Below are positions 6,366-57,953 of a stretch of DNA of 64,000 bases, piece by piece. The stretch is taken from contig JAGTJW010000001.1 in the NCBI GenBank assembly GCA_023657425.1, forward strand, positions 558,001-622,000, written 5' to 3'. This stretch comes from Ideonella sp. WA131b. Its GTDB lineage: Bacteria > Pseudomonadota > Gammaproteobacteria > Burkholderiales > Burkholderiaceae_C. Under the pieces are notes generated by a model. That model made no database searches and had not been told where the DNA came from. It worked only from the letters and a program-made list of their open reading frames with translations. The position numbers were made by a program, and so were the translations under genes. Within the stretch, counting starts at the first letter, position 1; the number at the start of each line of letters is the position of its first letter.

Positions 6366-6640
6366 CTAGGAGCGTGGGCGGCAGAAATCCAGCCCCGCGT
6401 TGGGCCGACTTCGGGGCCCAGGCCAGGCGCCGCGCGCAGCCCGGGCTGTACGCCCGGGCCAGCGTGGCAACGCCGCAAGGGCCCCGAAATCGGCCCAACC
6501 CGAAGGGCCGGGGCGGCCAAAGCCGCTGGCGGGTGTTGCGCCGCTGGCGCGGGCGTCAAGCCCGCGCTGCACGACGCGCCTGCGCCAGTGGCTTTGGCCG
6601 CCCCGGCGCGGGGCTGGATTTCTGCCGCCCACACTCCTAG
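6366..6640. repeat. Family A repeat, long copy (275 bp), CTAG-bounded palindrome
   Basis: Starts and ends with CTAG (6366-6369 and 6637-6640). The outer arms are inverted copies of the family A tip (GTGGGCGGCAGAAATCC followed by AGCCCCG). The interior has two more imperfect hairpins: GGGCCGACTTCGGGGCCC-like arms around 6400-6500, and arms carrying GCCAAAGCCGCTGGCG and CGCCAGTGGCTTTGGC around 6515-6600. It fills most of the gap between the ABC ATPase start (6355) and a small minus-strand gene (6682). No coding potential is evident. It could fold into a long cruciform and act as a bidirectional terminator, or be a non-autonomous mobile element; no transposase is nearby. Confidence 0.9.
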
Positions 6641-6681
6641 CCGCAGCGCCGCCGGAGCCCGGGGCGAGACCCCGGGCGCTG

Positions 6682-6867
6682 TCAGGCCGCCAGCGGCATC
6701 CCCGGGCCACCCTGGGGCTGCAGCGCCGGCAGCAGGTCGAGGTCCTCGAAGAAGGCTTCGCTGCGGGCCGCATCCCAGGCCGGCACAGGCGCCGTCTCGT
6801 CGCGGCGGCGACGGTTCTCGGGGCGCTGCTCGGGGGCCAGGGGGAACAGGTCGGCAAGCGAGATCAT
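6682..6867 (-). CDS. Small hypothetical protein (61 aa)
   Basis: Begins MISLADLFPLAPEQRPENRR and ends GGPGMPLAA; mildly acidic middle (SEAFFEDLDLLPAL), no membrane segment, no recognisable domain. A GGAG sits about six bases before the ATG at 6867, which is why I prefer this start to the longer arginine-rich extension to 7011. It is divergent from the 5'-nucleotidase gene at 6966 with a 98-bp gap. I do not recognise it. The composition is less Arg/Ala-biased than the antisense shadows around it, which argues for a real gene, but it could still be spurious. Confidence 0.5.
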   Translation of the reverse strand: MISLADLFPLAPEQRPENRRRRDETAPVPAWDAARSEAFFEDLDLLPALQPQGGPGMPLAA

Positions 6868-6965
6868 GGCGGCTCCGGCGGGGTTGGCGTCGGGATGCGC
6901 GGCATCGTGCCCGCGCGATGTGGCAGCGCGATGAAGCGCACCGGCGCGGCGTTCACAATTCACGC

Positions 6966-7868
6966 ATGCCCGCCACGCTCGAAGGCCAGCTCGTCGTTGC
7001 CATCTCCTCACGCGCCCTCTTCGATTTCGAGGAGGAGAACCGCGTCTTCGAGGCCGCCGACGACCGCGCCTACATGCAGCTGCAGCTGGCGCGGCTGGAG
7101 CAGCCGGCGCGGCCTGGCGTGGCTTTTTCGCTGGTGCACAAGCTGTTGGGCTTCAACATCGGCGGCGATGCGCGCGTGGAGGTGGTGATCCTGTCGCGCA
7201 ACGACCCCGTTTCGGGCCTGCGCGTGTTCCGCTCGGCGCAGCACTACGGCCTGGCGGTGCAGCGTGGTGTGTTCACGCGCGGCCAGCCGCCCTGGCGCTA
7301 CCTGCGGCCGCTGAAGGCCAACCTGTTTCTCAGCACCAACGAGGCCGATGTGCGCGAGGCCCTGGCGGCAGGCGTGCCGGCCGCGCGCGTGCTGCCGGAG
7401 AGCGCGCGGGCGGGCGCCAACCACCCCGACGAGGTGCGCATCGCCTTCGACGGCGACGCCGTGCTGTTCTCCGACGAGGCCGAGCGGGTCTACCAGAGCC
7501 AGGGCCTGCCGGCCTTCCAGCGCCACGAGCACGAACGGGCCGACACGCCGCTGGCCCCCGGCCCGTTCAAGCCGCTGCTCGAGGCCCTGCACCGCCTGCA
7601 GCGCGAGCCTGGCCCGGGCGGCCTGCGGCTGCGCACGGCGCTGGTCACGGCGCGCAGCGCCCCAGCGCACGAGCGCGCCATCCGCACGCTGATGCAGTGG
7701 CAGATCGACATCGACGAGGCCCTCTTCCTGGGCGGCCTGCCCAAGGGCGCCTTCCTGGCCGAGTTCGAACCCGATTTCTTCTTCGACGACCAAACCGGCC
7801 ACGTCGAGAACGCCGCACCGCACGTGCCGGCGGGCCATGTGGCCCACGGCGTGAGCAACGGGGGCTGA
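6966..7868 (+). CDS. Cytosolic 5'-nucleotidase (NT5C1-like family)
   Basis: 300 aa, close to the usual length of bacterial members of the 5'-nucleotidase family related to animal cytosolic 5'-nucleotidase I. Visible features are the N-terminal VVAISSRALFDFEEENRVFE segment, where SRALFDFEEE stands in the position of the HAD-like nucleophile region, followed by KLLGFNIGGDARVEVVILSRNDPVSGLRVF, then the DGDAVLFSDEAE loop around residue 160 and LFLGGLPKGAFLAEFEPDFFFDD near the C-terminus. It hydrolyses nucleoside monophosphates in the cytoplasm. I chose the ATG at 6966 because homology-like sequence begins there; upstream in-frame sequence belongs to the repeat. Specificity is not readable. Confidence 0.85.
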   Translation: MPATLEGQLVVAISSRALFDFEEENRVFEAADDRAYMQLQLARLEQPARPGVAFSLVHKLLGFNIGGDARVEVVILSRNDPVSGLRVFRSAQHYGLAVQRGVFTRGQPPWRYLRPLKANLFLSTNEADVREALAAGVPAARVLPESARAGANHPDEVRIAFDGDAVLFSDEAERVYQSQGLPAFQRHEHERADTPLAPGPFKPLLEALHRLQREPGPGGLRLRTALVTARSAPAHERAIRTLMQWQIDIDEALFLGGLPKGAFLAEFEPDFFFDDQTGHVENAAPHVPAGHVAHGVSNGG

Positions 7869-7872
7869 GCGC

Positions 7873-7992
7873 CTACTCCTTGCCGGCCCAGGGCGGCAGT
7901 TCCTCCTGGGCCGGCTCGACGCGCTGCAGGGCGCCGAAACCCAGCACCCTGGCTGCCGCGCACAGGACCGCCAGCGGCCGCCGGATGCCCAT
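7873..7992 (-). CDS. Candidate 39-aa small protein downstream of M16 peptidase
   Basis: Reads MGIRRPLAVLCAAARVLGFG, then ALQRVEPAQEELPPWAGKE. The first half could be a short membrane or signal segment, the tail (QEELPPWAGKE) is polar with a Trp-Pro motif. It starts 14 bp after the stop of the M16 peptidase gene on the same strand, so it could be co-transcribed, and ends 5 bp from the convergent 5'-nucleotidase gene. There is no strong Shine-Dalgarno sequence. It is included because it fills a gap neatly and has a plausible membrane-peptide layout; the evidence is position and composition only. Confidence 0.4.
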   Translation of the reverse strand: MGIRRPLAVLCAAARVLGFGALQRVEPAQEELPPWAGKE

Positions 7993-8005
7993 CGCAGCGG
8001 GGGCT

Positions 8006-10753
8006 TCAGGGCTTGGCACGGAAGTCACCGCCCCAGGCGATGACGAGTCTGGCCGGATCGATGTGGCGGCGCCAGGCGGCGTTGATCTCGGCCAGCGTCA
8101 CGCGGGCCAGCGCGTCGTCAAGCGCCTGCTCACGCGCGAAACGGCGATCGTGGTACAGGTTGCTGGCCAGGCGGTCCACCAGCACGCCGTCCTGGGCCCG
8201 GGCCAAGGCGCGCCGCTTCAGCAGCCCGGCACGGCCTGCGTCGAGCTCGGCCTGCGTGAAGCCCTCGGCCAGGGAGCGTGCCAACTCCTCCTTCAGCGCC
8301 TGCTCGACGCGCGGCTGGTTCTGCGGCGCGAAGATGGCGCTGAGGTTGAACGTGGTGCCGGCGTCCTGCACCGGAAAGTCGAACCAGCTGCCGACGTCGT
8401 AGCTCAGGCCCTCTTTCTCGCGGATGCGCATCCACAGCCGCGAGTCGGTACCGCGGCCGAACACCTGGTTGGCCAGCAGCAGCGCCGCATGATCGGGGTG
8501 GCTGTCGGTGATCGGCAGCACCAGGCGCGCGGCGAGGTGGGCGTTGGCCTTGTCGGGCGTGGCCTCGACGAAGCGGGCCGGCTCGGCCGGCGCCTGGGGC
8601 CGCGGCACGCGCACCTGCGGCTCGGGGCCGCCCGCGGGCTGGTGCCAGGCGCCGAAGGCCTCGGCGAGTGCACGGCGCACGGCGGCCACGTCCATGTCGC
8701 CCACCGCCGCGAACTCACCGCGCTGGGCGCTCACGAAGCGGCGGTGGAAGGCCCGCACCTGCTCCAGCGTGACGGCGCGCACCGCGGCGGCCTCCTCGTC
8801 GAAACCGGGCACATGGCGCAGGTCGCCCGCGGGCCAGCGGTTGCCGTGGCGTTCGATGCGGCGGTCGACCACGGCACCGGGGTCCTGGCGCGACTCCTCC
8901 AGGCCCAGCAGCCACTGCCGGCGCATCTCTTCCAGCGGCCCGGCCTCGAAGGCCGGCTCGCGCAGGAGCCGGCCGACCAGCAAGATGACCTCGGGCAAAC
9001 GCTCGCGGCGCGTCGTCACGTTCACCCAGATCGACTCGCCGGTGCCCTGGATGGACACCTGGGCCTGCAGCGCATCGAAGCGGTCGGCGATCTGCTGGCG
9101 CGTCATACCGGCGCCGCCCTTGTCGATCAGCGCACCCGCCAGCTCCGCCACGGTGCGTTGGCCCACCAGGCTCTGCGCCGTGCCGTGGTGCAGCGCCAGG
9201 CGCATGCGCACGCTGCGCCCGCGCGTGCCCTTGGGCAGCAGCGCATACCGCAGGCCCGCGTTCGGCAGCCGTGCCGGGCCGCCGACGGTGCCCTGCACCG
9301 TGCGGGCGTCCAGCACCGCGGGCGTCGGGTCGAAGGCCTCGGCCACGGCGGCGGCGGGGTCGCCGCGGTAGCCCTCGACGAGGCGGGCGACGTCGAACTT
9401 GGCCGGGGTCGGCGCCCGGTCGGGCGCGGCCACCGGCTCGAACACCGCGACGCTGCGGTTGTCGCGCTTGAGCCAGGTGCGCGCAAAGCGGTTGAGATCG
9501 TCGAGCGTGAGGGCACGGACGCGGTCACGGGCCAGGAAATACAGCCGCCAGTCGCCCTGCGCGATGGCCTCCGACAGCGCCACGCCGATGCGCTCGGGAT
9601 CGGCGAAGCCGTTGTCCCAGTCGTTCAGCCAGGCCTGGCGCGCGCGCTGCAGCTCCTCGGCCGTCACCGGCTCGGTGGCCACGCCGTCGAGCACCGCAGC
9701 CATGGCGGCGCGCGCAGCGGCCACGTCCTGGCCTGGCGCCAGCGCCGCGCCCACGATCAGGGCCGAGGGCTCGGCCCAGGCCAGCGTGGCGCTGAAGGCC
9801 TGCGCGGCCTGACCCGGCTCAACGACGCGGCGGTGCAGGCGGCCGCCGGGCGTGTCGCCCAGCACCATGGCCAGCAGCTGCGCCGCGGCGAAGTCGGGGT
9901 GCGGGCCCGGCGGCACGTGGTAGCCGATGTAGATCAGCGGCGCGCCGCCGACACGGCGCACGGTGGCGAGCCGCTCGCCGTCCTGGGCCGGGTCCAGCGT
10001 GTAGGTGGGCTCGAGCACGCGCGTCGGCCGCGGGATCGGGCCGAAGCTCTCCTGCACCCAGGCCAGCACCTGGGCCGTGTCGAACTTGCCCGAGACGATG
10101 AGCGTGGCGTTGTCGGGCTGGTAGTGCCTGCGGTAGAAGGCCTGGAGGCGCGAGATGTCGACGTTCTCGATGTCGGTGCGCGCGCCGATCGTGCCCTTGC
10201 CGTAGTTGTGCCAGTCGTACATCGTGCCCAGGAGGCGGTGGAAGAGCACGCGGCCGGGGTTGTTCTCGCCGGCCTCGAACTCGTTGCGCACCACCGTCAT
10301 CTCGGTGTCGAGATCGGCCCGGGCGATGAAGCTGTTGACCATGATGTCGGCCTGCCAGCCCAGATACCAGCGCAGGTTGCGGTCATCGGCGGCGAAGCTG
10401 GCGAAGTAGTTGGTGCGATCCGTCCAGGTGGTGCCGTTGGCGCGCAGACCACGGCGGCTGAACTCGGCCAGCGCGTTGCGCGTGGTCGGCGTGCCCTTGA
10501 AGACGAGGTGCTCCAGCAGATGCGCCATGCCGGTCTCGCCGTAGTTCTCGTGCCGACTGCCGACACGGTAGGTCATGTTCACCGTGGTCGTCGGCTTGCT
10601 GTCGTCGGGCACCAGCAGCAGCTGCAGGCCGTTGACCAGGCGGTATTCGCTGATGCCTTCGACGGTGGTCACCCGTTGCGGAGCCGCCAGCGCGGCACCC
10701 GCGGCGCAGAGCAAGGCGAGCGCGCAGGCCCGCAGCCAGAGGAGCTTGATCAT
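8006..10753 (-). CDS. Periplasmic M16 family zinc metallopeptidase (two-domain, pitrilysin-like)
   Basis: 915 aa. Signal peptide at residues 1-24 (ends ALAA). The inverted zinc motif HLLEH at residues 78-82 lies in the conserved GMAHLLEHLVFKGT context, with the distal Glu expected in NEFEAGENNPGR about 75 residues later. The second half (from about residue 490) is a further pair of M16 subdomains without an HxxEH motif, as usual, and contains the RLVLPITDSHPDHAALLLAN and FGRGTDSRLWMRIREKEGLSYDVG segments that bind peptide termini. It degrades oligopeptides in the periplasm. The start at 10753 is fixed by the signal peptide. Next gene upstream is the Crp-type regulator (same strand, 101 bp). 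Confidence 0.92.
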   Translation of the reverse strand: MIKLLWLRACALALLCAAGAALAAPQRVTTVEGISEYRLVNGLQLLLVPDDSKPTTTVNMTYRVGSRHENYGETGMAHLLEHLVFKGTPTTRNALAEFSRRGLRANGTTWTDRTNYFASFAADDRNLRWYLGWQADIMVNSFIARADLDTEMTVVRNEFEAGENNPGRVLFHRLLGTMYDWHNYGKGTIGARTDIENVDISRLQAFYRRHYQPDNATLIVSGKFDTAQVLAWVQESFGPIPRPTRVLEPTYTLDPAQDGERLATVRRVGGAPLIYIGYHVPPGPHPDFAAAQLLAMVLGDTPGGRLHRRVVEPGQAAQAFSATLAWAEPSALIVGAALAPGQDVAAARAAMAAVLDGVATEPVTAEELQRARQAWLNDWDNGFADPERIGVALSEAIAQGDWRLYFLARDRVRALTLDDLNRFARTWLKRDNRSVAVFEPVAAPDRAPTPAKFDVARLVEGYRGDPAAAVAEAFDPTPAVLDARTVQGTVGGPARLPNAGLRYALLPKGTRGRSVRMRLALHHGTAQSLVGQRTVAELAGALIDKGGAGMTRQQIADRFDALQAQVSIQGTGESIWVNVTTRRERLPEVILLVGRLLREPAFEAGPLEEMRRQWLLGLEESRQDPGAVVDRRIERHGNRWPAGDLRHVPGFDEEAAAVRAVTLEQVRAFHRRFVSAQRGEFAAVGDMDVAAVRRALAEAFGAWHQPAGGPEPQVRVPRPQAPAEPARFVEATPDKANAHLAARLVLPITDSHPDHAALLLANQVFGRGTDSRLWMRIREKEGLSYDVGSWFDFPVQDAGTTFNLSAIFAPQNQPRVEQALKEELARSLAEGFTQAELDAGRAGLLKRRALARAQDGVLVDRLASNLYHDRRFAREQALDDALARVTLAEINAAWRRHIDPARLVIAWGGDFRAKP

Positions 10754-10854
10754 GGGCGGATTCTTGCGCAGCGCCGCGGCATCGACATGCCCCGTGGCCG
10801 GCCAGGGTTGGTGACAGCGCCTTCCGCCGGAGCGCTTGATGTCCTCAAGGGCGG

Positions 10855-11589
10855 TCAGGCCGCATAACGCCGCAGCCGTTCCAGATCGAGCACGCGCACG
10901 CCACCGTACTCGACGCGGATGACGCCTGCGCCGTCCAGCGCGGCCAGCGCCTCGTTCACACGCTGGCGGCCCAGGCCCACGAGGTAGCCCAGCTCCTGCT
11001 GCGTGATGCGCAGCCGCTCGCCCACGCCGGGATACAGCACGGGGTGAAACAGCGCCGCCAGGTTGCGCGCCACGCGCTCGTCGGGGTGGGTGAGGCGGTC
11101 GATCTCGCGCGCGGCGATGAACTGGCCCAGCCGCTCGTTGAGCTGGTTCATGACGAAGCGGTTGAAGGCGATGCTGCGGCCCAGCAGCCAGTGGAAGGTG
11201 TCGGCCGGGATGCCCGCCACCACGCTGGGCCGCAGCGCCTGGATGTTGTAGCGGTAGACCTCGTTCTTCAGCAGCGTGCCCTCGCCGAACCAGCCGCCAC
11301 TGGTGATGCCGGTGAAGGTGATCGGCAGGCCCTCGGCGCTGTCGTTGCTCATCTTCAAGAGGCCGTCGATCACGCCCAGCCACCACACGGCGGCGCGGCC
11401 GACACGGCACAGCACCTCGCCCGGCTGCACGTCGATGACGCGCAGATCGGCCACCACGCGGGCCCGGTGCTCGGCCTCGATCAGCCCGAGCCAGGGCACG
11501 CTGGCGAGATCGTCGCGCGCGGGCGCCCGCGACTGCGAGCTGCGCACCGCGATGGCATGGTTGGCTGACGGGAGAGCATTCGTCGCCAT
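10855..11589 (-). CDS. Crp/Fnr family transcriptional regulator, divergent from the acyl-CoA ligase/liv operon
   Basis: 244 aa. N-terminal cyclic-nucleotide-binding-like beta-roll (about residues 40-150, with GEVLCRVGRAAVWWLGVIDGLLKMS and GGWFGEG), long dimer helix, then a C-terminal winged helix (about 170-240) with recognition region RITQQELGYLVGLGRQRVNEAL. The Arg-Ser/Thr pair that contacts cAMP phosphate in Crp is not seen in the GGWFGEGTLLKNEVYRYN segment, and there is no Fnr-type cysteine cluster, so it likely senses something else, possibly an acyl-CoA, as this subfamily usually sits next to acyl-CoA ligase/liv operons. Start ATG 11589 is before the divergent gap that holds a perfect dyad at 11633-11650. 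Autoregulation and control of the divergent operon are inference. Confidence 0.85.
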   Translation of the reverse strand: MATNALPSANHAIAVRSSQSRAPARDDLASVPWLGLIEAEHRARVVADLRVIDVQPGEVLCRVGRAAVWWLGVIDGLLKMSNDSAEGLPITFTGITSGGWFGEGTLLKNEVYRYNIQALRPSVVAGIPADTFHWLLGRSIAFNRFVMNQLNERLGQFIAAREIDRLTHPDERVARNLAALFHPVLYPGVGERLRITQQELGYLVGLGRQRVNEALAALDGAGVIRVEYGGVRVLDLERLRRYAA

Positions 11590-11632
11590 GGGCGGGTCAC
11601 AAGGGAAACACCTGTCAGTGCGAACCCGACAA

Positions 11633-11650
11633 TTGTCGTCGGAACGACAA
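11633..11650. promoter_or_regulatory. Candidate Crp/Fnr-type operator (7-4-7 dyad)
   Basis: TTGTCGT-CGGA-ACGACAA is a perfect 7-bp inverted repeat with a 4-bp spacer, located between the divergent regulator (start 11589) and the ligase gene (start 11715). An overlapping 12-bp palindrome CGACAATTGTCG lies at 11627-11638. Length and spacing fit a Crp/Fnr dimer site. The assignment to the adjacent regulator is inference from position. Confidence 0.6.
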
Positions 11651-11714
11651 CACGGCGTCAAAGTGATGTCCAGAATGAATGCTCGGGGTCCAACGAGAAC
11701 CCAGGAGACACGCA

Positions 11715-13694
11715 GTGCCGACGACGTTCCCCCGTCTGATGCTCGACCACGCGAAGGCGCGCCCCTCGGCGCCGGCCCTGCGCGAGAAGGTCTACGGCAT
11801 CTGGCAGACCACGACGTGGGCCGAGCTTGCGGTGCTGGTGCGGCACCTGGCTTGCGGCCTGGCCCATGCGGGCCTGAAGCGCGGCGACCACATCGTCGTC
11901 GTCGGCGACAACCGGCCGCGCCTGTACGCCACCCTGCTGGCGGCGCAGAGCCTGGGCGGCATCCCGGTGCCCCTGTACCAGGACGCCGCGGCCACCGAGT
12001 ACGTGTTCCCGGTCAACAACGCCGAGGTGCGCTTCGCCGTCGTCGAAGACCAGGAGCAGGTCGACAAGATGCTCGAGCTGCGCGAGCAATGCCCGCTGCT
12101 GGCGCACATCTGGTACGACGACGCGCGCGGCCTGCGCAACTACGCCGAAAACGGCCTCGACAGCCTGGACGCGCTGGTGGCCGCCGGCCAGGCCCACGAC
12201 GCGAGCCACGCGCGCCTGTTCGACGACGAGGTGGCGCAGTGCCAGCCGGGCGACGTGGCGGCGATGTTCTTCACCAGCGGCACCACCGGCAACCCGAAGG
12301 GCGTGGTGCACACGCACGCCACCCTGCTGGACCGCGCCAAGGCCGGCCAGTCCTTCGACAAGCTCACCGAGCGCGAAGAGGTGCTCGCCTACATGCCGCT
12401 GGCCTGGATCGGCCAGAACATCTTCAGCTACGCGCAGTGGCTGGCCTGCGGCTACGTGGTGAACTGCCCTGAGAGCGCGGCCACGGTGATGATCGACCTG
12501 AAGGAGATCGGCCCCACGTACTACTTCGCGCCGCCGCGGGTGTTCGAAGGGCTGCTCACCAGCGTGATGATCCGCATGGAAGACGCCGGCCGCGTGAAGC
12601 GCTGGCTGTTCGAGCGCGGCATGGACGTGGCCCGCCGCGTGGGGCCGGCCCTGATGGACGACCGCCTTGCCGCGGGCACGGCGGGGGCCGGCAAGACCAT
12701 CGGCGCGCTCGACCGCCTCAAGTACCGCCTGGGCGACTACTTCGTCTACGGCCCCTTGCGCAACACGCTGGGCTTCAGCCGCGTGCGCGTGGCCTACACG
12801 GCCGGCGAGGCCATCGGCCCCGACCTCTTCACCTTCTACCGCTCCATCGGCATCAACCTGAAGCAGCTCTACGGCAGCACCGAAACCGCCGTGTTCGTGT
12901 GCCTGCAGCCCGACCATGAAGTGAAGGCCGACACGGTGGGCGTGCCGATCGACGGCGTGCAGATCCGCGTCGAGGCCAGCGGCGAGATCATGGTCAAGAG
13001 CCCGGGCCTGCTGAAGGAGTACTACAAGAACCCCAAGGCCACCGAAGAGGTGCTGACGGCCGACGGTTGGTACCACACGGGCGACGCCGGCTTCCTGGAT
13101 GCCACCGGCCACCTGAAGATCATCGACCGCGCCAAAGACGTGGGCCGCCTGTTGGGCGGCACCAACGACGGGGCCATGTTCGCGCCCAAGTACGTGGAGA
13201 ACAAGCTGAAGTTCTTCCCGTTCATCAAGGAGGCCGTGGCCTTCGGCGACCGGCGCGAGAAGGTCTGCGCCTTCATCAACATTGACTTCGAGGCCGTGGG
13301 CAACTGGGCCGAGCGGCGCAACCTGCCGTATGCCGGCTACACCGATCTGGCCGGCAAGACCGAGGTGCTGGCGCTGGTGAAGGACTGCGTCGAGAAGGTC
13401 AACGCCGATCTCGCCGCCGACGCCATGCTGGCCGGCAGCCAGGTGAGCCGCTTCCTCGTGCTGCACAAGGAGCTGGATGCCGACGACGGCGAGCTCACGC
13501 GCACGCGCAAGGTGCGCCGCGGCGACATCGGCGACAAGTACCAGGTGCTGGTCGATGCGCTCTATGGCGGCCGGGCCGAGCAGTTCATCGAGACGGCGGT
13601 GAAGTTCGAAGACGGCCGCTCGGGCAGCGTGAGTGCGACGCTGCCGATCGTGGATGCGAAGACGTTCGCGGCGGTGGGGGGGAAGGCGGCGTGA
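11715..13694 (+). CDS. AMP-forming acyl-CoA ligase (long-chain/aryl type) of the liv operon
   Basis: 659 aa ANL-superfamily enzyme. Core motifs: P-loop FFTSGTTGNPKG (about residue 194), A5-type YGSTETA, A7 YHTGDAGFLD and A8 hinge IIDRAKDVGRL; the last catalytic Lys region near the C-terminus reads GELTRTRKVRRGDI. It activates a carboxylic acid with ATP and CoA. The start is GTG at 11715 with AGGAGA six bases upstream; this gives the family N-terminus TTFPRLMLDHAKARPSAPA. It opens the operon with livGHM, the binding protein and livF, so it probably activates the imported compound. Members of this subfamily are annotated long-chain fatty-acid CoA ligases but the substrate is not proven. Confidence 0.88.
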   Translation: MPTTFPRLMLDHAKARPSAPALREKVYGIWQTTTWAELAVLVRHLACGLAHAGLKRGDHIVVVGDNRPRLYATLLAAQSLGGIPVPLYQDAAATEYVFPVNNAEVRFAVVEDQEQVDKMLELREQCPLLAHIWYDDARGLRNYAENGLDSLDALVAAGQAHDASHARLFDDEVAQCQPGDVAAMFFTSGTTGNPKGVVHTHATLLDRAKAGQSFDKLTEREEVLAYMPLAWIGQNIFSYAQWLACGYVVNCPESAATVMIDLKEIGPTYYFAPPRVFEGLLTSVMIRMEDAGRVKRWLFERGMDVARRVGPALMDDRLAAGTAGAGKTIGALDRLKYRLGDYFVYGPLRNTLGFSRVRVAYTAGEAIGPDLFTFYRSIGINLKQLYGSTETAVFVCLQPDHEVKADTVGVPIDGVQIRVEASGEIMVKSPGLLKEYYKNPKATEEVLTADGWYHTGDAGFLDATGHLKIIDRAKDVGRLLGGTNDGAMFAPKYVENKLKFFPFIKEAVAFGDRREKVCAFINIDFEAVGNWAERRNLPYAGYTDLAGKTEVLALVKDCVEKVNADLAADAMLAGSQVSRFLVLHKELDADDGELTRTRKVRRGDIGDKYQVLVDALYGGRAEQFIETAVKFEDGRSGSVSATLPIVDAKTFAAVGGKAA

Positions 13695-15066: not shown

Positions 15067-15078
15067 GGAGCAAGGGCC

Positions 15079-25721: not shown

Positions 25722-26837
25722 ATGACAGCCTGGATCGGCCTGATGTCGGGCTCTTCGCTCGACGGCGTCGACGGCGTGCTGGCGCTCGAAGAGAACCGCG
25801 GCGTGCTGCGCGGCTGTGCCCACGTGCACCTGGACTTTGCGCTCGAATTGCGCGCCGAGCTGCTGGCGCTGAACAGCCCCGGCAACAACGAGCTGCACCG
25901 TGCGGCTCTCGCCACGAACGCGCTGATGCAGGTGTACGCCGAGGCGGTGGCGACACTGCTGAGTCGCACCAGCCTAGCGCGCGCGTCCGTTCGGGCCATC
26001 GGCGCCCATGGCCAGACGGTACGCCACCGGCCTGGCGAGTTCGACGGCAGTGGCTACACGCTGCAGCTCGTCAACGGCGCACTGCTGTCCGAGCGGGCCG
26101 GCATCGATGTGGTCTGCGACTTTCGCAGCCGCGACGTCGCGGCCGGCGGCCAGGGCGCACCGCTGGTCCCGGCCTTCCACGCCGCGCGCTTCGGCCGCGC
26201 GGGCGAGTCGCTGGCGGTGCTCAACATCGGCGGCATCGCCAATCTCAGCCTGCTCGATGCCGACGGCGGCGTGCGCGGCTTCGACTGCGGGCCGGGCAAC
26301 GTGTTGATGGATGCGTGGATCCAGCGCCACCGCGGCGAGGCTTTCGACGACGATGGCGCCTGGGCCGCCCGTGGCCGACCGCTGCCGGCATTGCTGGCGT
26401 GCTGCCTGGACGAGCCTTACCTGTCGAAGGCGCCGCCCAAGAGCACGGGGCGGGATCTGTTCACGCCCGACTGGCTGACCCCGCGGCTCGACGCGGCCGG
26501 TGCCACCGCGGCCGATCCCGCTGACGTGATGGCCACGCTGGCGGAGTTCACGGCCACCGCCGCCGTGCAGGCCCTGCGGACGCAGCAGCGAGGCACGACG
26601 AGGCTGGTGGTCTGCGGGGGCGGCGCCTGGAATGCCCACGTGATGCGGCGCCTGACGGCACTGTCTGGCCTGCCGGTGGTGTCGAGCGCCGCCGAGGGTG
26701 TGCCGCCCGAACAGGTGGAGGCCATGGCCTTCGCATGGTTAGCCCGAGCCTGCGTGCGGCGCGAGCCTGGCAATGTGCCCGCCGTCACGGGCGCGGCCGG
26801 GCCGCGGGTGCTGGGAGCTCTTTACCAAGCGGGCTAG
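25722..26837 (+). CDS. anmK: Anhydro-N-acetylmuramic acid kinase AnmK
   Basis: 371 aa. Begins WIGLMSGSSLDGVDGVL (substrate and phosphate loop), with GAHGQTVRHRP, the catalytic Asp segment FRSRDVAAGGQGAPLVPAFH, NIGGIANLSLL and the C-terminal VCGGGAWNAHVMRRL. It phosphorylates and opens 1,6-anhydroMurNAc from recycled peptidoglycan. I preferred ATG 25722; a TTG at 25686 overlapping the M23 stop would add 12 residues with no family match. Its TAG stop (26835-26837) is part of the CTAG boundary of the family A repeat, so the last codons abut the repeat. Confidence 0.95.
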   Translation: MTAWIGLMSGSSLDGVDGVLALEENRGVLRGCAHVHLDFALELRAELLALNSPGNNELHRAALATNALMQVYAEAVATLLSRTSLARASVRAIGAHGQTVRHRPGEFDGSGYTLQLVNGALLSERAGIDVVCDFRSRDVAAGGQGAPLVPAFHAARFGRAGESLAVLNIGGIANLSLLDADGGVRGFDCGPGNVLMDAWIQRHRGEAFDDDGAWAARGRPLPALLACCLDEPYLSKAPPKSTGRDLFTPDWLTPRLDAAGATAADPADVMATLAEFTATAAVQALRTQQRGTTRLVVCGGGAWNAHVMRRLTALSGLPVVSSAAEGVPPEQVEAMAFAWLARACVRREPGNVPAVTGAAGPRVLGALYQAG

Positions 26838-27008
26838 GAGCGTGGGCGGCAGAAATCCAGCCCCGGCCCCTCGGGTTGGGCCGATTTCGGGGCCCATGCG
26901 GCGTTGCCACGCTGGCCCGGGCGCACAGCCCGGGCTGCGCGCGGCGCCTGGCCTGGGCCCCGAAGTCGGCCCAACGCGGGGCTGGATTTCTGCCGCCCAC
27001 GCTCCTAG
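26834..27008. repeat. Family A repeat, 175-bp copy between convergent anmK and erpA
   Basis: CTAG at both ends (26834-26837 and 27005-27008). Outer inverted arms carry GTGGGCGGCAGAAATCC; an inner palindrome has GGGCCGATTTCGGGGCCC-like arms and a CCCGGGC...GCCCGGG core. The left CTAG contains the TAG of anmK and the right CTAG contains the TAG of erpA on the other strand, so the repeat exactly fills the space between two stop codons. It is the most symmetrical copy in the window and would make a strong bidirectional terminator. Confidence 0.92.
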
Positions 27009-27379
27009 ACTGAGAACGACGACCCGCAGCCGCAGGTCGTCGAGGCGTTCGGGTTCTTGATCACGAACTGCGCACCCTGGAGGTCTTCCTTGTAGTCGAT
27101 CTCGGCGCCCATCAGGTACTGCAGGCTCATGGCATCGATCAGCAGCGTGACACCGTTCTTGGACATCTGCGTGTCGTCTTCGTTGACAAGCTCGTCGAAA
27201 GTGAACCCGTACTGAAAACCCGAGCAGCCGCCGCCCTGCACGAAAACGCGCAGCTTGAGTTCGGGGTTGCCTTCCTCGGCCACCAGATCGGCCACTTTGG
27301 CCGCGGCGCTGTCGGTGAAGATCAGCGGCACCGGCATCTCGTCGGTGGCGGTGGGCAGGGCTTCGGCGATGGCGTTCAT
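27005..27379 (-). CDS. erpA: A-type iron-sulfur cluster insertion protein ErpA
   Basis: 124 aa. A-type carrier with the three conserved cysteines: C52 in [15 protein letters not shown] and C116/C118 in TTCGCGSSF near the C-terminus. It delivers Fe-S clusters to apo-enzymes such as IspG and IspH. The start ATG 27379 gives [14 protein letters not shown], usual for Burkholderiales ErpA. The stop TAG belongs to the family A repeat. Bactofilin is 11 bp upstream on the same strand. Confidence 0.95.
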
Positions 27380-49224: not shown

Positions 49225-51465
<2,241 letters not shown>

Positions 51466-51469
<4 letters not shown>

Positions 51470-51510
51470 GAGTGTGGGCGGCAGAAATCCAGCCCCGCGC
51501 CGGGGCGGCC
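51466..51510. repeat. Family A repeat, one-ended copy at the 3' end of ligC
   Basis: CTAG at 51466 followed by GAGTGTGGGCGGCAGAAATCC and the hairpin GCCCCG-CGC-CGGGGC (51492-51506). Only one outer arm is present. At 51510 it joins the 3' part of a truncated restriction gene; the reverse arm is missing. So it looks like a deletion product with one end in the repeat. Confidence 0.85.
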
Positions 51511-53057
51511 AGCGCTCGCAACACGCGGGCCCGGTCCAGCATCGTGGCAGCGCCGCCTGTCTCCACCGCAGCCTGCGGCGCACCACCCTTCAGCAGCTCC
51601 AGGCCCAGGTCCATCTGTTGTGCCGAGCGCGGCTGTGCATCCGGCGCCCAGTTCGCCACCCACTGTGCAGGCTGCGCCGCCTGCCAGTCCAGGCCCGCCA
51701 GCACGTCGCTGTCGTACTCGAGATCGCGGCGCTGGCCGTCGGGCTGTACCCAGGTCACGCGCGGCACGACGATGCGGGTGCCTTGCCAGGCCCCGCGGCG
51801 CTGCTGCTTCACGGGGCGCGGCGACTCGGGGTCCGCGTCACCGCCACGCACGGCCGAGCCCAGGTCGCCCATGCCTTCGCCTTCCAGCGACTTGCGGATC
51901 GCTTCCACCACCTTGCCCGTCTCCGCGTCGTGGCACAGCACGTAGCAGGCATCCAGCGCCGGCCGGCCGGTCTTCGCCACCTGGGGCAGCCGCAGCACAC
52001 GGCCCACCAGCTGGGTCATCGCGGCCAGGTTGCGGCCCGCCGCCAGCGTGCACAGCACATAGGCGAACGGGCAGTCCCAACCCTCCTGCAAGGCCTGCTT
52101 GGTGATGATGGCGCGCACCTCGCAGGAGGGTGAGAGCAGGTCGATGTTCTCGGGCGCCGCCAGGTCGTTGCGTTCGCTGGTCTTGATGGCGATGTGGCGC
52201 GGCTGCAGGCCCAGGGCCAGCAGGTGTTCGCGTGCATCCTCGGCGTGGATGAACCCGGCGTCGCGCAGGTCGGCCCCGGTGCGCTCCACCTGCACCAGCA
52301 GGATGGGGCGGATGCAGCGCGCCGTTTCGCCCTGCAGGGCCTCGGCCTCGCGTTGCAGTGCGTCCAGTTGGGCACGGCCTGCAGCAGCGCATGGTGGGCG
52401 GCCAGGTCGTCTTCGCGTGGCAGGAAGCCCATCACGCGGCCGCTGTCGGCAAAGAACTTCAGCGTCTCCCTGTTGCGCCGGGCGGCGCCGGGCGGCACCG
52501 GCCAGCATCCGCAGCATCACGCACAGGTGGCCGTCCACGTCCTGCCGTGTCAGAGGGTGTGTCTTCTCCAGCACCTTCACGCGGCCGGCACCGGCCACGT
52601 TGAGCAGTTGGCGGTACGGAAGCTCGCGGTTGGCCAGCGCCTTGGGCGTCTGCGTGTAGATCGCCTCGTTGGGCACCACCCACAGCACCAGGCCCGTGCT
52701 CCGGCGCAGCCACCCCTGCAGGATCTGGCCCACGGCGGCGGCAGCCAGCAGCGTCTTGCCGCCACCGGTGGGCACCTTCAGGCAGACGTTGGGGATGGCG
52801 CGGCCGGCGCCGTCCCAGCGGCTGTGGTGCTCCGCGCTGTGGTCCTTGTGCAGGGGCGGCGGCAGGGCGCCGGCCTTGCGCAGCGCTTCCCAGGTGTGCC
52901 GGGGACAGTCGGCGAGCTGGCGAAGCGTCTCTTCGGCACCGTCCATCATGCGCAGCGCCTCGGCCTGCTGGACCGTGGAAGCCTGCTGCCGACGCAGCTC
53001 GGTGATGTAGCGCTCCAGTTGCTCCAACACACGGCGCTGGAAGTCCTTCAGCGACAC
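51511..53057 (-). pseudogene. Type III restriction enzyme (Res) gene, 3'-truncated, with two compensating indels
   Basis: Translation starts at GTG 53057 (VSLKDFQRRVLEQLERY) and has Walker A VPTGGGKTLLAAA, VLWVVPNEAIYTQT, AIITKQALQEGWDCPFAYVLC and TQLVGRVLRLPQ of the helicase domain. At 52475-52494 a 10-bp unit GCGCCGGGCG is duplicated in tandem, shifting the frame; near 52367 one C is missing, shifting it back; between them the original sense (RRNRETLKFFADSGRVMGF) is in another frame. The 3' end stops at 51510 where the coding sequence runs into the family A repeat (RVLRALAAP then repeat-encoded residues). The C-terminal endonuclease part is absent, so it cannot cut. It overlaps the mod remnant by 10 bp. 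Confidence 0.88.
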
Positions 53058-53690
53058 CCCGCCCACCGGTGCTGGGCCCACGGCGGCGCGGCGAAGTCCA
53101 CGCCCAACGCCTGCCAGGTGGGCAGGTGCTCGCCGCTGAGCATCTTCTCCAGGCTCAGCGGCTCGCCCAGCGTGCAGCAGGTGAAGCTGCCGCCCAGGCC
53201 CGGTGCATGCTCGCTCACGCGGCGCACGCCTTCGACGCGCAGCACGCCGTCGTCGACCTTGGCCTCGATGGCGTGGAAGCGCTTGGGCGCGTCCTCGCCC
53301 GGGTCGGCCAGGTCGCCTTCGGCAAAGCCTTCGCGGGCCTTGATGGCGTCCACCTGCGCCAGCAGGGCATCGGCCTGCTTCAGCTGCGTGTAGGTGATCT
53401 TCTGCTCCAGCAGCGTTTCGCGCTGCGTGCCCTCCCACGCATAGCCGCGGATGGCAAGGCGCAGGCGCTCGGCGGTGAGCGTGTCGGCGTAGGCCTCGCC
53501 TTCGACAAGGATGAAGCGGCGCGTGCCACCGTCCTTGGCGTTGGCCTTGAGCACGGCGTGGGCGGTGGTGCCGGAGCCGGCGAAGGAGTCGAGGATGAGG
53601 GAGTCGGAAGCACCGCCAATCTCCAGCACACGCAGCAGCAACTCCACGGGCTTGGGCGTTGCGAACTCGGCGCTGTCTTGCGCGGCGCCC
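53048..53690 (-). pseudogene. Type III DNA methyltransferase (Mod) gene, 5'-truncated remnant
   Basis: About 214 aa of the C-terminal half remain: DSAEFATPKPVELLLRVLEI, SAM motif I LILDSFAGSGTTAHAVL, then IRGYAWEGTQRETLLEQKIT, and a tail of specificity. The N-terminal half with the DPPY motif is missing. At about 53690 the Mod reading frame meets a different sequence encoding MRAVNLTIAARLGLLPGALA. It overlaps the res start (GTG 53057 before the TGA at 53048), preserving the usual mod-res coupling. Confidence 0.85.
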
Positions 53691-53699
53691 AGGCGGACA

Positions 53700-53775
53700 G
53701 CACGGTGACCGGCAGGGCCAGAGCCCCCGGCAGCAGGCCGAGTCGCGCCGCGATGGTGAGGTTGACGGCTCTCAT
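53700..53775 (-). pseudogene. Fragment resembling the 5' end of a chemoreceptor (MCP) gene
   Basis: ATG at 53775 begins MRAVNLTIAARLGLLPGALA, which looks like the start of a methyl-accepting chemotaxis protein in this order (NLTIAxRLGLL, then a hydrophobic stretch). It is fused in another frame to the mod remnant after about 25 codons. Short, so the assignment is tentative; the exact junction lies in 53680-53700. Confidence 0.45.
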
Positions 53776-53980
53776 GAGCAGGACCTTCAGCAAGGACGGG
53801 TGGTCGGTCGATCCGGGTTCGTGCCCGGTAGCAGGTTCGACCGGATGTCGGAGCGACGGGCCGGACTTTGGGGCGGGAACTGAGCCGGAGCCTGAGCCGC
53901 GTTTTCGGGCGACGTGCCCGGCCGGCATGGGCAGAATCGGCGGCGGCCGCAGCAAGCGGCCGCCAAGAGCCCGTCTTCCC

Positions 53981-54985
53981 ATGCCTCACGATCCCCGCCC
54001 GCTCGGGCCCTTCCTCGTGCGCCCGCTCGGCCTGGGCTGCATGAACCTCAGCCACGCCTACGGCCTGCCGCCGCCGCCCGAGCAGGGCGAGCGCGTGCTG
54101 CTGGAGGCGCTGGACGCCGGCGTCGACTTCTTCGACACCGCCGCGCTCTACGGCTTCGGCGCCAACGAGCGCCTGGTGGGCCGCGTGCTCGGCCCGCACC
54201 GCCACCGCTTCGTGCTGGCCAGCAAGGGCGGCATGACCGCGCAACCGGTGGGCGAAGGCGGCGCGCTGCAGCGCGTGATCGACGGCCGGCCCGCGAGCAT
54301 CCGCCGCGACTGCGAGGACAGCCTCCAGCGCCTGGGCACCGAGGTCATCGACCTGTACTACCTGCACCGCTGGGACAAGGCCGTTCCCATCGAGGAGAGC
54401 GTGGGGGCGATGGCCGATCTGCTGCGTGCCGGCAAGGTGCGCGCGCTCGGCCTGAGCGAGGTCTCGGCCGCGACGCTCAGGCGCGCCCACCGCGAGCACG
54501 CCATCGCCGCGCTGCAGACCGAGTACAGCCCCTGGACGCGCAACCCCGAGATCGCCGTGCTTGAGGCCTGCCGCGAGCTGGGCACGGCCTTCGTCGCCTT
54601 TAGCCCCGTGGGCCGCGGCGCGCTCACCGACACACCGCCCGACCCCGGGGCCTTCGACGCCAAGGACATCCGCCGCTCGATGCCGCGCTTCGCCCCCGCC
54701 CACTGGCCGGCCAACCAGGCGCTGCGGCAGCGGCTGGCGGCGCTGGCGCGCCAGGCCGGCTGCACCACGGCGCAGCTGTCGCTGGCCTGGGTGCTGTCGC
54801 GCGGGGCGCACGTGCACGTCATCCCGGGCACCACGAGCGTCGCGCACCTGCAAGAGAACCTGGCCACGCCCGCGCTGCCGGCGGCGGTGCTGGCCGCCGT
54901 GGGTGCTCTGATGACGCCGCAAGCGCCCTCGGGCCAGCGCTACGGTGAGCAGGCGCAGGGCGAGGTGGACACCGAGGTGGCCTGA
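53981..54985 (+). CDS. Aldo/keto reductase
   Basis: 334 aa. Active-site set: Asp in DFFDTAALYGFGANE, Tyr in the same block, Lys in RFVLASKGGM, His in DLYYLHRWD; the C-terminal GTTSVAHLQENL segment binds the cofactor phosphate. NADPH-dependent reduction of unknown carbonyl. ATG at 53981. The 205 bp before it (53776-53980) hold no gene that I can support. Confidence 0.88.
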   Translation: MPHDPRPLGPFLVRPLGLGCMNLSHAYGLPPPPEQGERVLLEALDAGVDFFDTAALYGFGANERLVGRVLGPHRHRFVLASKGGMTAQPVGEGGALQRVIDGRPASIRRDCEDSLQRLGTEVIDLYYLHRWDKAVPIEESVGAMADLLRAGKVRALGLSEVSAATLRRAHREHAIAALQTEYSPWTRNPEIAVLEACRELGTAFVAFSPVGRGALTDTPPDPGAFDAKDIRRSMPRFAPAHWPANQALRQRLAALARQAGCTTAQLSLAWVLSRGAHVHVIPGTTSVAHLQENLATPALPAAVLAAVGALMTPQAPSGQRYGEQAQGEVDTEVA

Positions 54986-55114
54986 GCATGCGCGGCGCCG
55001 CGCGGCGGGCGGCTGGCGACAGGCGACAGGCTCTGGAAAGTCGCCGGTAAGTCGAGCCGGCCGACGATGCGGTCCGCCGCCCGTGGTGGCCACTTCAACC
55101 TCCTGGAGCTCCAC

Positions 55115-55774
55115 ATGCCCTGCCTCAGCCGCCCGCCCCTTGCGATGTTCGCTCTGACCCTCACCGCCTCCCTTGTTGGCGCCGCGCCGGCCGCCGCACG
55201 GGCACAGGAGCGCCCGTGGAGCGTCACGCTCGACGCCGGCCTCAGCAGCGCCAGCGACCCCGATTTCGCCGGTGGCCGCCTGAGCACACGGGGCGGCCCG
55301 GCCTACGGCGGCGCCATCGGTCGCCGCCTGGGCGACGACTGGCGCGTCGAGGCGGCGCTGATGTACCGCAGCCACCCGGTCAAGGCGGTCAGCAGCCCCG
55401 GCTTCGACGCCCGCCCGGCCGACGCGGACTGGGCATCCCTCTTCGTCACCGTGAACCTGATCCGTGACTTCGCGGCGTTCAAGCTGGGCCCTGCCCAGGT
55501 TCGCCCCTACGTCGGCCTGGGCTTGGGCCGTGCGCAGGAGGTGGATGCCGACCTGACCAGCGGTGGCAGCCCTCGCGAGTTCTCGGGCTCGCGGAGCGCC
55601 TGGCAGGCCATGGTCGGACTGCGCTGGGACTACGGCAGCCCCTGGGTGGCCGACATCGGCCTGACGCTGGCCGACGCCGGCCGCGTGCGCCTGGCGGCCT
55701 CCGGAGGGGGTGCCGCGGTGGAGGCGCGCTACCGAGCGGCCACGCTCATGGCGCGGCTGGGCTATCGGTTCTGA
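55115..55774 (+). CDS. Outer-membrane beta-barrel protein
   Basis: 219 aa. Signal peptide at residues 1-30 (PPLAMFALTLTASLVGAAPA, ending ARAQ). The mature protein alternates hydrophobic and polar residues (WSVTLDAGLSSASD, WRVEAALMYRSHPV, VRPYVGLGLGRAQEV) and ends in an aromatic (LGYRF), the outer-membrane C-terminal signature. GGAG lies seven bases before ATG 55115. It is 56 bp before a two-component pair on the same strand, so it may be connected to that sensor. Role unknown (porin-like or OmpW-like small barrel). Confidence 0.8.
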   Translation: MPCLSRPPLAMFALTLTASLVGAAPAAARAQERPWSVTLDAGLSSASDPDFAGGRLSTRGGPAYGGAIGRRLGDDWRVEAALMYRSHPVKAVSSPGFDARPADADWASLFVTVNLIRDFAAFKLGPAQVRPYVGLGLGRAQEVDADLTSGGSPREFSGSRSAWQAMVGLRWDYGSPWVADIGLTLADAGRVRLAASGGGAAVEARYRAATLMARLGYRF

Positions 55775-55830
55775 CCGCCTCGGCGCTGCAAGCGAACGCG
55801 CCCGCTGGCACCGGCTTCCAGACTGGCAAC

Positions 55831-56550
55831 GTGAACCGCATTCTGCTGGTCGAAGACCACCCCGCCATGCGCGATCTGGTGCAGCTCGAGCTCGCCCAGG
55901 CCGGCATCGCGGCCGACGCGGTGTCGCGCATCGGTGAGGCCGAGGCTTGCCTGGCGCAGTCGAGCTACGCCGCGCTGGTGCTCGATCGTGGGCTGCCCGA
56001 GGGAGACGCGCTGCCCTGGTTGAAGCGGCTGCGCGGGCGCCAGCTGCTGCTGCCCTGCCTGCTGCTGACGGCACGCGATGCGTTGCACGACCGCGTCGAC
56101 GGCCTCGAGGCCGGCGCCGACGACTACCTGCCCAAGCCTTTCGAGCGCGAGGAGCTGGTGGCCAGGGTGCGCGCGCTGCTGCGGCGCCAGCAGGCTTGGG
56201 TCAGCAATGCCCCGCAGTGGGCCGGGCTGGTGGTTGACCCCATCAGCGCGCGGCTGACTTGCGGCCGAACGAGCGTCAACCTGGCCACCAGCGAGCTGCA
56301 GCTGATGATCGCGCTCGTGCGCGCGCAGGGCGCTCTGGTGCGCCGCGCCGCGCTCGAGGAGGCTGCCTGGGGCCTGACCGAGCCGGTGACGCCCAACGCG
56401 CTCGACGTGGCGCTGCACCGGCTGCGCCGCAAGCTCGCGCTGGTGGCGCCGGGCGTGCTGGTCATCAACACCAAGGGCGTGGGCTACTCGCTGCAGCAAG
56501 GCGACCAGCCAGGCCCGGAGGACGCGGATGCCGGGTCCGCGCCGCGCTGA
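55831..56550 (+). CDS. OmpR/PhoB-type response regulator
   Basis: 239 aa, GTG start. Receiver domain: VEDHPAMRDL, the phospho-acceptor Asp in LVLDRGLPEGDALPWL, Lys in DDYLPKPFEREELVARVRALL. DNA-binding winged helix from about 130 (LATSELQLMIALVRAQGALVRRAALEE, VLVINTKGVGYSLQ). It overlaps the following kinase gene by 23 bp. Its target is unknown; the outer membrane protein gene next door is a candidate. Confidence 0.9.
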   Translation: MNRILLVEDHPAMRDLVQLELAQAGIAADAVSRIGEAEACLAQSSYAALVLDRGLPEGDALPWLKRLRGRQLLLPCLLLTARDALHDRVDGLEAGADDYLPKPFEREELVARVRALLRRQQAWVSNAPQWAGLVVDPISARLTCGRTSVNLATSELQLMIALVRAQGALVRRAALEEAAWGLTEPVTPNALDVALHRLRRKLALVAPGVLVINTKGVGYSLQQGDQPGPEDADAGSAPR

Positions 56551-57916
56551 AGACCGCACGCCCAGCCTGGCTGTGCGCCTGGCGCTGGGTTTCGCCCTGG
56601 CCTTCGCATCGACGGCGCTGCTGGTGGTGGGCGTGCAGGCCGTGCTGGCCGAGCGATTCGGGCATCGCGTCACGCAGATGAGCATGGCCGGACAGACCGA
56701 GGACATCTTCGACGGCTTCGTGTTCGATGAGCACCGGCGGGTCATCGACGTGCGGCTGCCTGCCGAGGACTCGATCGGCTTCGACGACTTCTTCGCGAAC
56801 CTCAAGTACCGGGTGCTCGACCAGACAGGCAAGGTGGTGGCCAGCAGCGAGACCGACCGCCGCTCGCTGCTGCCCGGGCGCCCGGTGGCGGAGCAGGACG
56901 GCTTCTTCGGCGTCGTGCCGGTGGACGGGCGCGACTTCTTCGTCGGCGTCTGGGCGCGTGAGCTGCACGGGCACCGCTACCTGTTGCAGCTGGGGCGCAG
57001 CGACCGCTTCGAACTGCTGGCGCGCGAGGCGCTGACACCCGCCATCACCGACACCGTGCTGGTGCTGGGCTCGCTGTCGGCCATGATCTTCTCGCTGGCC
57101 GGTGCGCTGGCGGTGCGCTCGGTGCTGCGGCCGATCCGCCGCGTCGAGGCAGCGGCACGCGACGTCGGCGGCCGCAACCTGGCCGCACGGCTGCCCGAAG
57201 ACGGTCTGCCGGCCGAGATCCGCCCTCTGGTGCAGGCCTTCAACGGCGTGCTGGAGCGTCTGGAACGCTCGTTCCAGGAGCAGGACCGCTTCATCGCGAA
57301 CGCCGCTCACGAGCTGAAGACGCCACTGGCGCTGGTGCGAGCGCAGCTCGAGGCCGGACCACCCGGGCCCGAGGTGCAGGCCCGATTGCTGCGCGAGCTC
57401 GATGGCCTGGGGCGCCAGGTGCAGCTGCTGTTGCAGTTGGCCCAGGTGGCCGATCGCCAAACGCTGCGCCGCGGCCCGACGCAGCCCTTGGTGGTGGCCC
57501 GCACGGTGCTGGAGCACCTGGCCTTCCAGGCCGAGCGGCGCGACATCAGCCTGCGCCTGGAGGACAACAGTGCCGGACAGCCCATCGACGCCGATGCCGG
57601 TGCGCTGTTCGTGCTGGTGAAAAACCTGGTGGACAACGCGCTGGGCTTCGCGCCGCCCGGCAGCGCCGTCGAGCTGCGGCTGGAGGGCACCGGGTTGAGC
57701 GTCAGCGACCGCGGGCCCGGCGTGCCCCCGGAGCTGCGCGAGCACGTGTTCGAGCGCTTCTGGCGAGCGCCTGGGCAAGCGCGCGCCGGCTCGGGCCTCG
57801 GGTTGGCACTGGTCCGCGAGATCGCCCACGCCCACGGCTGGACGGTGCACTGCACCGAGACACCGGGGGGCGGCGCCAGCTTTGTGCTGCGATGGGCGGG
57901 CCCGGCGGCTGACTAG
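56528..57916 (+). CDS. Sensor histidine kinase, partner of the 55831 regulator
   Basis: 462 aa. N-terminal membrane helix ([22 protein letters not shown]), a periplasmic sensor region of about 120 residues (ends near residue 155), second helix ([22 protein letters not shown]), HAMP-like [16 protein letters not shown], dimerisation H-box [16 protein letters not shown], ATPase N-box [15 protein letters not shown]1 SDRGPGVP and G2 GSGLGLALV. The C-terminus ends GPAAD at the TAG (57914-57916), which is part of the CTAG of a family A repeat. Confidence 0.92.
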
Positions 57917-57953
57917 AAGCGTGGGCGGCAGAAATCCAGCCCCGCGCCGGGGC
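57913..57953. repeat. Family A repeat, one-ended copy at the 3' end of the kinase gene
   Basis: CTAG at 57913-57916, AAGC then GTGGGCGGCAGAAATCC, and the hairpin GCCCCG-CGC-CGGGGC at 57939-57953. The TAG of CTAG is the stop of the kinase gene. It lies 64 bp before htpG and could form a terminator-like hairpin on either strand. Confidence 0.9.

Follow-up and report, generated by a model that had tools for sequence, protein, structure and literature searches.

A putative miniature inverted-repeat transposable element with IS1182-type ends at CTAG sites and stop codons of Ideonella sp. WA131b

Results

CTAG-bounded repeats and the genes that end in them

The window analysed here is a whole stretch of 64,000 nucleotides from Ideonella sp. 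WA131b (assembly GCA_023657425.1, contig JAGTJW010000001.1, positions 558,001 to 622,000; the genome is referred to as G000). It carries four copies of a repeat family bounded by the tetranucleotide CTAG, and at three of the four copies the TAG within CTAG is the stop codon of a gene. These repeats are very probably a miniature inverted-repeat transposable element (MITE), putatively non-coding, which would be moved in trans by a DDE transposase of the IS1182 family. The tip of the repeat, GTGGGCGGCAGAAATCC, has six exact matches in the window (at 6374, 26842, 51474 and 57921 on the forward strand, at 6616 and 26984 on the reverse strand), while the seventh match carries 3 mismatches (shuffle mean 0.25). 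The six tips fall in four places, two with paired inverted tips and two with a single tip:

6366..6640, forward strand: full element, 275 bp when its two CTAGs are counted, with outer stem, arm 1, mini-hairpin and arm 2 (three-way junction)
26834..27008, forward strand: 175-bp copy without arm 2, lying between the convergent anmK and erpA stops; empty site in the relative G327 (L195)
51466..51512, forward strand: half copy with one tip and the start of arm 2, its TAG being the stop of an oxidoreductase gene; its end was set by eye against the 6366 copy
57913..57953, forward strand: half copy with one tip, whose TAG ends a sensor histidine kinase gene

A sequence-only reading of this DNA had described four copies that share the tip right after CTAG. 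The copies are real and CTAG-bounded; between CTAG and the tip, GAGC, GAGT or AAGC intervenes. That the two full copies are palindromes is borne out by their inverted tips, by the CTAG on both sides of 6366-6640 and 26834-27008 and by strong folding as single-stranded DNA (z of -17.4 and -14.4).

Codon-usage gene calls, each backed by a family model, give the following stops:

26835..26837, forward strand: TAG stop of anmK (gene 25722-26837)
27005..27007, reverse strand: TAG stop of erpA (gene 27005-27379)
51467..51469, forward strand: TAG stop of the oxidoreductase gene 50519-51469
57914..57916, forward strand: TAG stop of the sensor kinase gene 56573-57916

The family models score 467 bits for anmK (cut-off 367) and 196 bits for erpA (cut-off 117), and they also back the sensor histidine kinase and htpG, which lies downstream of it. 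All four stops that had been assigned to the TAG in CTAG are called, and the 26834 copy does lie between two convergent stops. The third gene, which had been named ligC, is by family models a GFO_IDH_MocA-type oxidoreductase and receives no closer name. Four genes had served as seeds for the gene caller (htpG and the genes with stops at 26837, 51469 and 57916), so the stop calls at the copies are not fully independent: three of the four genes concerned are among these seeds. At the 6366 copy the codon-usage calls place no gene stop at either boundary. TAG is rare as a stop codon in the window (7 of 62 called genes, against 55 with TGA), and the tips account for four of these seven. Outside the window, TAG ends 21 of 281 genes in fourteen other 20-kb stretches of G000.

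Empty sites in related genomes

For seven elements, the two flanks were joined and searched for in eight congeners, which had been selected mainly for their closeness, and the matches were aligned. At four of the seven sites the empty state, with the flanks joined at one CTAG, occurs in close relatives. For the 26834 copy it is found in G327 (one of eight rows), where a single CTAG ends both anmK and erpA, which converge on it. Site C1:1962445 is empty in G331 and G327 (two of seven rows; of the others, one has a CTAG one base off, two have CTAG elsewhere and two stop at TGA). Site C2:336440 is empty in G327 (one of six rows; four stop at TGA and one at GTAG), and C1:233800 in four of six rows (G327 and three more). 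In five checked rows from G327 and G331 the TAG of the empty site is in frame with the same gene; in a sixth, G331 at C1:233800, it is out of frame.

Because the empty sites hold a single CTAG, the difference between filled and empty state is the element plus one CTAG. The element therefore inserts at CTAG and duplicates its target, either 4 bp or the TA within CTAG, and in this respect the proposal of the sequence-only reading is supported at four of the seven sites tested. Duplication of 4-bp CTAG and of the 2-bp TA inside it look identical in sequence, and a few copies in relatives have ATAG or TTAG outside, so that both lengths remain compatible. The element is 267 bp long, or 275 bp when both flanking CTAGs are counted; it would be 269 bp if TA alone were duplicated.

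An IS1182-type element with the same ends

Searching the genome and its relatives for the tip, as had been suggested for this repeat, gave 82 tips in G000 at one mismatch at most (3.87 Mb in 3 contigs; reversed control 0), and tips at up to two mismatches in 17 of the 80 genus genomes, G000 being one of them. The MITE is present in no fewer than two genera, which belong to a single taxonomic family. In G321 the tips delimit an autonomous element (C679:138-1696), which is complete with 1559 bp and has CTAGGAGCGTGGGCGGCAGAA at both ends and a transposase of 439 aa. Its ends are identical to the left tip of the 6366 copy over 21 bases, CTAG included; the right tip of that copy differs by one base. 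The transposase matches the NCBIfam model NF033551 (IS1182) with 383 bits (cut-off 270) and has the Pfam domains DUF772, DDE_Tnp_1 and DDE_Tnp_1_6.

This transposase is present in eight of the 80 genus genomes at E <= 1e-60. Five of the eight loci (L232-L236) show two CTAG-bounded tips 1.55-1.56 kb apart, the frame of L235 being reported with an internal stop, while the remaining three (L237-L239) have one end or a rearranged copy. The tip variants GTGGGCGG and CTGCGCGG are common to the insertion sequence (IS) and the MITE. In G331, six contig ends start with CTAGGAGCGTGGGCGGCAGAACTTC and continue into non-palindromic sequence that, by eye, is like the left end of the G321 element. MITE and IS share 21 terminal bases, and no likeness was seen by eye further in. 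An exact search of viral contigs for one IS1182 end gave no match.

The repeats thus have what characterises a MITE: they are short, have inverted ends paired over 33 base pairs in the consensus, occur in many copies and, as the empty sites indicate, duplicate their target. An assignment to IS1182 is indicated by ends in common with an autonomous element and by the membership of its transposase in that family.

Several observations weigh against this reading. An IS1182 partner in the same genome, which is usual for a MITE and not strictly defining, was not found in G000: there is no IS1182 transposase at E 1e-60 and none over the family cut-off. Of 18 weak IS1182-like matches in G000, the best, a 53-bit fragment, was inspected for tips and has none. 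The MITE-rich relative G325 gave no transposase at E 1e-60 either, and none was recovered from G331, which has both the MITE and the six IS-like tips. As G000 and G325 gave no transposase, the link between mobiliser and MITE rests on tip identity across species. Three of the sites searched for an empty state showed no empty CTAG (C1:1589981 with 1 row, C1:1339891 with 2 and C1:1455441 with 0). Of the four sites that did, three lack a CTAG at the exact place in most rows from the other relatives. A stop without CTAG at the orthologous site, which the sequence-only reading had named as fatal to insertion at CTAG, is indeed seen for the half copy at 51466, where the gene of five relatives ends with TGA and CTAG is absent; the kinase half copy gives the same result, though from a poor alignment. 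For four two-ended copies the outcome was the reverse. Finally, the solo tips and stand-alone double tips described below are explained only in part.

Other candidate mobilisers

Two types of mobiliser had been envisaged for the repeats. The IS5 type is unsupported, as the tips match IS1182-family ISs; no IS5-family search was made in G000. The other was a RAYT, a tyrosine transposase of the HUH type that is associated with repetitive extragenic palindromic (REP) sequences. Under this explanation the TAG-ended tip would play the part of GTAG in GTAG REPs, and two paired tips that of a REPIN (a REP doublet forming a hairpin). The tetranucleotide ending in TAG, the palindromic pairs next to single tips and the mostly intergenic location all agree with it, and GTAG REP termini have been reported to supply TAG stops (PMC3733652). 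G000 has one match to Y1_Tnp, but the gene reaches 54 bits against a cut-off of 80 (REP_Tyr_transpos) and lacks the beginning of the Y1 domain (profile positions 32-121 matched), and its 3.3-kb locus holds no tip. Since the CTAG-bounded tips agree with IS1182 ends across 21 bases, mobilisation by a RAYT is extremely unlikely. The Y1_Tnp match itself (C1:849498, L031) is an incomplete RAYT-like gene with a sub-threshold match to a C-terminal helix-turn-helix; it lies beside a frame that by eye resembles the IS1634 transposase of L144.

IS630 elements target CTAG, and copies of IS630, IS701 and IS1634 type in G000 sit exactly in CTAG, some of them in CTAGs of tips. Another resident CTAG-specific transposase of one of these types might therefore be thought to move the MITE, and a MITE with CTAG or YTAA as target is known in MITEPsy1 (PMC3189936). 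The inverted ends of the resident ISs (GTGTAGTGTT, TCCACTGA, TCTTACTGTGT, GCTGAAGTTCCCC) are, however, unlike GAGCGTGGGCGG beyond CTAG, which makes this origin very improbable. As to the individual candidates, derivation from IS630 was rejected since the IS630 ends GTGTAGTGTT and TCCACTGA do not match the tips; IS701 and IS1634 were rejected as movers since they have the same CTAG target but different ends.

The IS630 element has 1.17 kb and occurs in six near-identical full copies exactly in CTAG:

G000 C1:1656628, C1:4931, C1:1026936; C2:710069, C2:1069345; C3:310935: IS630 copies L100-L105

Three IS630 copies, two of them with identical flanks, are followed by the tip-like sequence CTAGGAGCATGGGCG or CTAGGAGCGTGG. 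An IS701-family IS (C1:1455716-1457193) and an IS1634-family IS (C1:649031-650996) sit in MITE-tip CTAGs, the latter with outward-pointing tips on both sides.

The repeat family and its relation to stop codons

In the 305 kb around tips, window included, 103 CTAGs are flanked by a tip at least on one side and 46 by none, a tip being defined in this set by at most one mismatch across 8 bases after CTAG. There are 31 two-ended elements: 21 of 275 bp, three of 175 bp, two of 167 bp and one each of 36, 60, 66, 72 and 91 bp. Identity among the 21 full copies is 97-100%, with a mean of 98%, and hints at a burst of recent date. Whereas 7 of 35 background CTAGs lie inside called genes, no two-ended element among the 31 does so over its whole length; at C2:709082 a called gene extends over one end of the element. 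The neighbouring genes are oriented -/- in 11 cases, +/+ in 10, -/+ in 5 and +/- in 3, with one side unknown in 2.

CTAG itself is scarce. The window has it 14 times (shuffle mean 60.65), and in a 280-kb sample it was seen 35 times where 271 were expected from dinucleotides, a depletion of about 8-fold. This sample consists of the fourteen 20-kb stretches of G000, which were hand-picked rather than random and, being tip-free, are usable for background CTAGs alone. Six of its 35 CTAGs are at stops, 22 are intergenic and 7 lie inside genes. Extrapolated very roughly, one in five CTAGs of G000 would belong to an element end.

Twelve of the 31 two-ended elements touch a gene stop, compared with 6 of the 28 non-coding background CTAGs (P = 0.17) or 6 of all 35 (P = 0.059). 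In the 305-kb set, stops are found at 11 of 46 CTAGs without and at 29 of 103 with a tip. For the window, three of four copies at a stop correspond to P = 0.033 at a rate of 6/28 and to 0.16 at 12/31. The link to stop codons is largely due to target availability and to the harmless restoration of CTAG on both sides; a modest extra preference for stops beyond availability is compatible with these numbers. Four genes ending at the same element boundary, which had been regarded as not expected by chance, are thus largely accounted for by a CTAG that is rare and often in a stop or between genes, with the P of 0.033 leaving room for such a preference. A preference for hairpins at the target is weak and uncorrected for the choice of measure (mean stem 3.88, against 3.29 in shuffles, P 0.012, and 3.42 in re-paired flanks, P 0.016; 24 of the 31 two-ended elements, seven having been dropped for a tip just outside).

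Half copies, solo tips and double tips

At the 51466 half copy the oxidoreductase gene of the window stops at the TAG of the tip, two codons before the end seen in the relatives, and for the 57913 half copy a poor alignment shows TGA as the stop in four relatives. The tip at the half copies would thus supply the stop, or at least it landed on no stop seen in relatives. The inner end of the 57913-57953 half copy abuts a CTTGAAA box upstream of htpG (window 57954-58018); CTTGA is present in seven of seven rows of relatives and CTTGAA in six. This box resembles the -35 region of a heat-shock promoter.

Solo tips touch stops more often than do the boundaries of two-ended elements (13 of 32 against 11 of 55, P = 0.048; with double tips included, 16 of 41 against 13 of 62, P = 0.072). 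Such an excess would be expected if erosion of an element halts at the stop codon. It would also be expected if the element carried TAG and created a stop at every site, instead of landing on existing stops, and the TGA stops of the relatives at the two half copies point in the same direction. At four sites, however, CTAG with an in-frame TAG is already present in the empty relative. Stop creation is thereby refuted as a general rule and improbable as an overall explanation, while it holds for at least one half copy.

The number of solo tips is a lower bound, drawn from the first part of the 163 places that a 12-mer search gave (12 in the reversed control). Back-to-back tips on one CTAG, found at 16 of the 103 tip CTAGs, are proposed to arise because elements insert at each other's CTAG. 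When 14 solo and double-tip sites were queried in eight relatives, 12 aligned on at least one side and two (S7 and P3) on none. Most of the queried sites have diverged flanks and reveal no firm history, and one (S2) is a tip-like sequence common to G331, possibly no element.

A stand-alone palindrome, CACGCTCCTAGGAGCGTG, is found in G000 at C1:52847 (L140), where G331 (C86, L249) has 724-750 bp more. The flanks in G331 are 96% and 94% identical on the two sides, and the extra sequence belongs to a gene for an IS1380-like transposase (110 bits, cut-off 180). This replacement is possibly a deletion from a palindrome-bearing state or a stem-loop replacement like that of IS1272. G000 holds further stand-alone double tips.

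Fold of the 275-bp unit

The terminal inverted repeats have about 30 bp. In the fold of a full copy, an outer stem of 33 pairs encloses arm 1, a very small hairpin and arm 2; the 175-bp copy has no arm 2. A full copy was aligned with seven copies from six other genomes, covering two genera. In the consensus structure 96.3% of 887 cells are paired. Both sides have changed, with pairing kept in at least one sequence, at 45 of 111 pairs; the shuffle mean is 21.7, none of 500 shuffles was as high and slid controls reached at most 9. As the structure was derived from the same alignment, this test is biased in its favour. All eight copies extracted from six other genomes are 274-275 bp long (14 loci were given and lengths of 240-299 bp alone considered).

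Covariation of this kind may reflect selection on the fold. Imperfect DNA palindromes can also be corrected to perfect ones by strand switching, which gives paired changes without selection and may equally be the cause here. A functional unit, be it terminator, mRNA stabiliser or structured RNA, might have been selected at gene ends with mobility being secondary. The covarying three-way junction, the constant length and the copies at stops speak for such a unit; yet copies occur in all gene orientations, with only 3 of 31 between convergent genes, the association with stops does not clearly exceed CTAG availability, the paired changes may come from strand switching and the element ends without a T-run. 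We regard selection for such a function as rather unlikely. It is similarly improbable that the 275-bp unit is being kept as a structured nucleic acid, a three-way junction with two arms that vary widely between species while pairing and total length stay nearly constant. If this were true, the unit would serve a purpose of its own as cargo, either as a folded single strand for transposition or as a transcribed gene-end RNA, and CTAG-specific IS1182 transposases would spread structured cargo, placing it harmlessly on palindromic stops.

Discussion

Proposed mode of insertion

Returning to a MITE moved by an IS1182-family transposase, the enzyme would bind the tips and make a staggered cut at CTAG, resulting in a duplication of 4 bp or of the TA inside CTAG. 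Insertion into a CTAG that bears a stop would keep this stop on both strands, because CTAG is self-complementary and is restored on both sides. As CTAG is depleted and mostly non-coding, insertions would be tolerated and would gather at gene ends and between genes. Every insertion would add a new CTAG, and this would explain back-to-back tips and nested CTAG-specific ISs. Copies would erode later, and a half copy may then carry the stop of the gene.

Relation to known elements

IS1182-family MITEs have been described for Methanosarcina acetivorans, with ISMac2 as partner; they have 160 and 169 bp and inverted ends of 25-26 bp, and one has 4-bp direct repeats (PMC3852290). The present repeats are like them in being short and non-autonomous, with inverted ends and an IS1182-family partner. 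They differ from these archaeal MITEs in sequence, in their 275 bp (both CTAGs included), in the three-way junction, in a CTAG target that is evident from empty sites and in the contact with stop codons. MITEPsy1 of Pseudomonas syringae, which is IS5-related, inserts after CTAG or YTAA and duplicates 4 bases, and its transposition has been shown in vivo (PMC3189936). It shares the CTAG target and the duplication with the present MITE, but has 100 bp, ends of ISPsy2 type and a transposase of another family; stop codons as targets are unmentioned in the accessible part of that paper.

GTAG REPs and REPINs are palindromic, and their TAG-ended termini often give a stop codon to flanking ORFs (PMC3733652). 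Unlike them, the present element has CTAG at both ends, a duplicated target and an IS1182 partner, and no RAYT link was found. The IS1182-family element IS1272 has palindromic targets and is reported to replace the target stem-loop without duplication (PMC5678879). The transposase family and a palindromic target are common to both, whereas the present element duplicates CTAG and keeps the flanks at four sites. A review of prokaryotic MITEs mentions neither IS1182 nor CTAG in a term search (PMC10969869). Among the matches listed in open-access papers, we recognised none as describing the present family. IS1182 MITEs and a CTAG-duplicating MITE are already known, and the family belongs to a known kind.

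Significance

For annotation, the half copies are a warning that a gene end within such a copy may come from the element. Identical tips tie a MITE of at least two genera to an IS1182 partner. The family is a clear case of a transposon that colonises a gene-dense genome via a target word that is rare, mostly non-coding, often a stop and self-complementary. Each insertion creates another copy of this rare target, which would account for nested elements and for the other CTAG-specific ISs that sit in tips.

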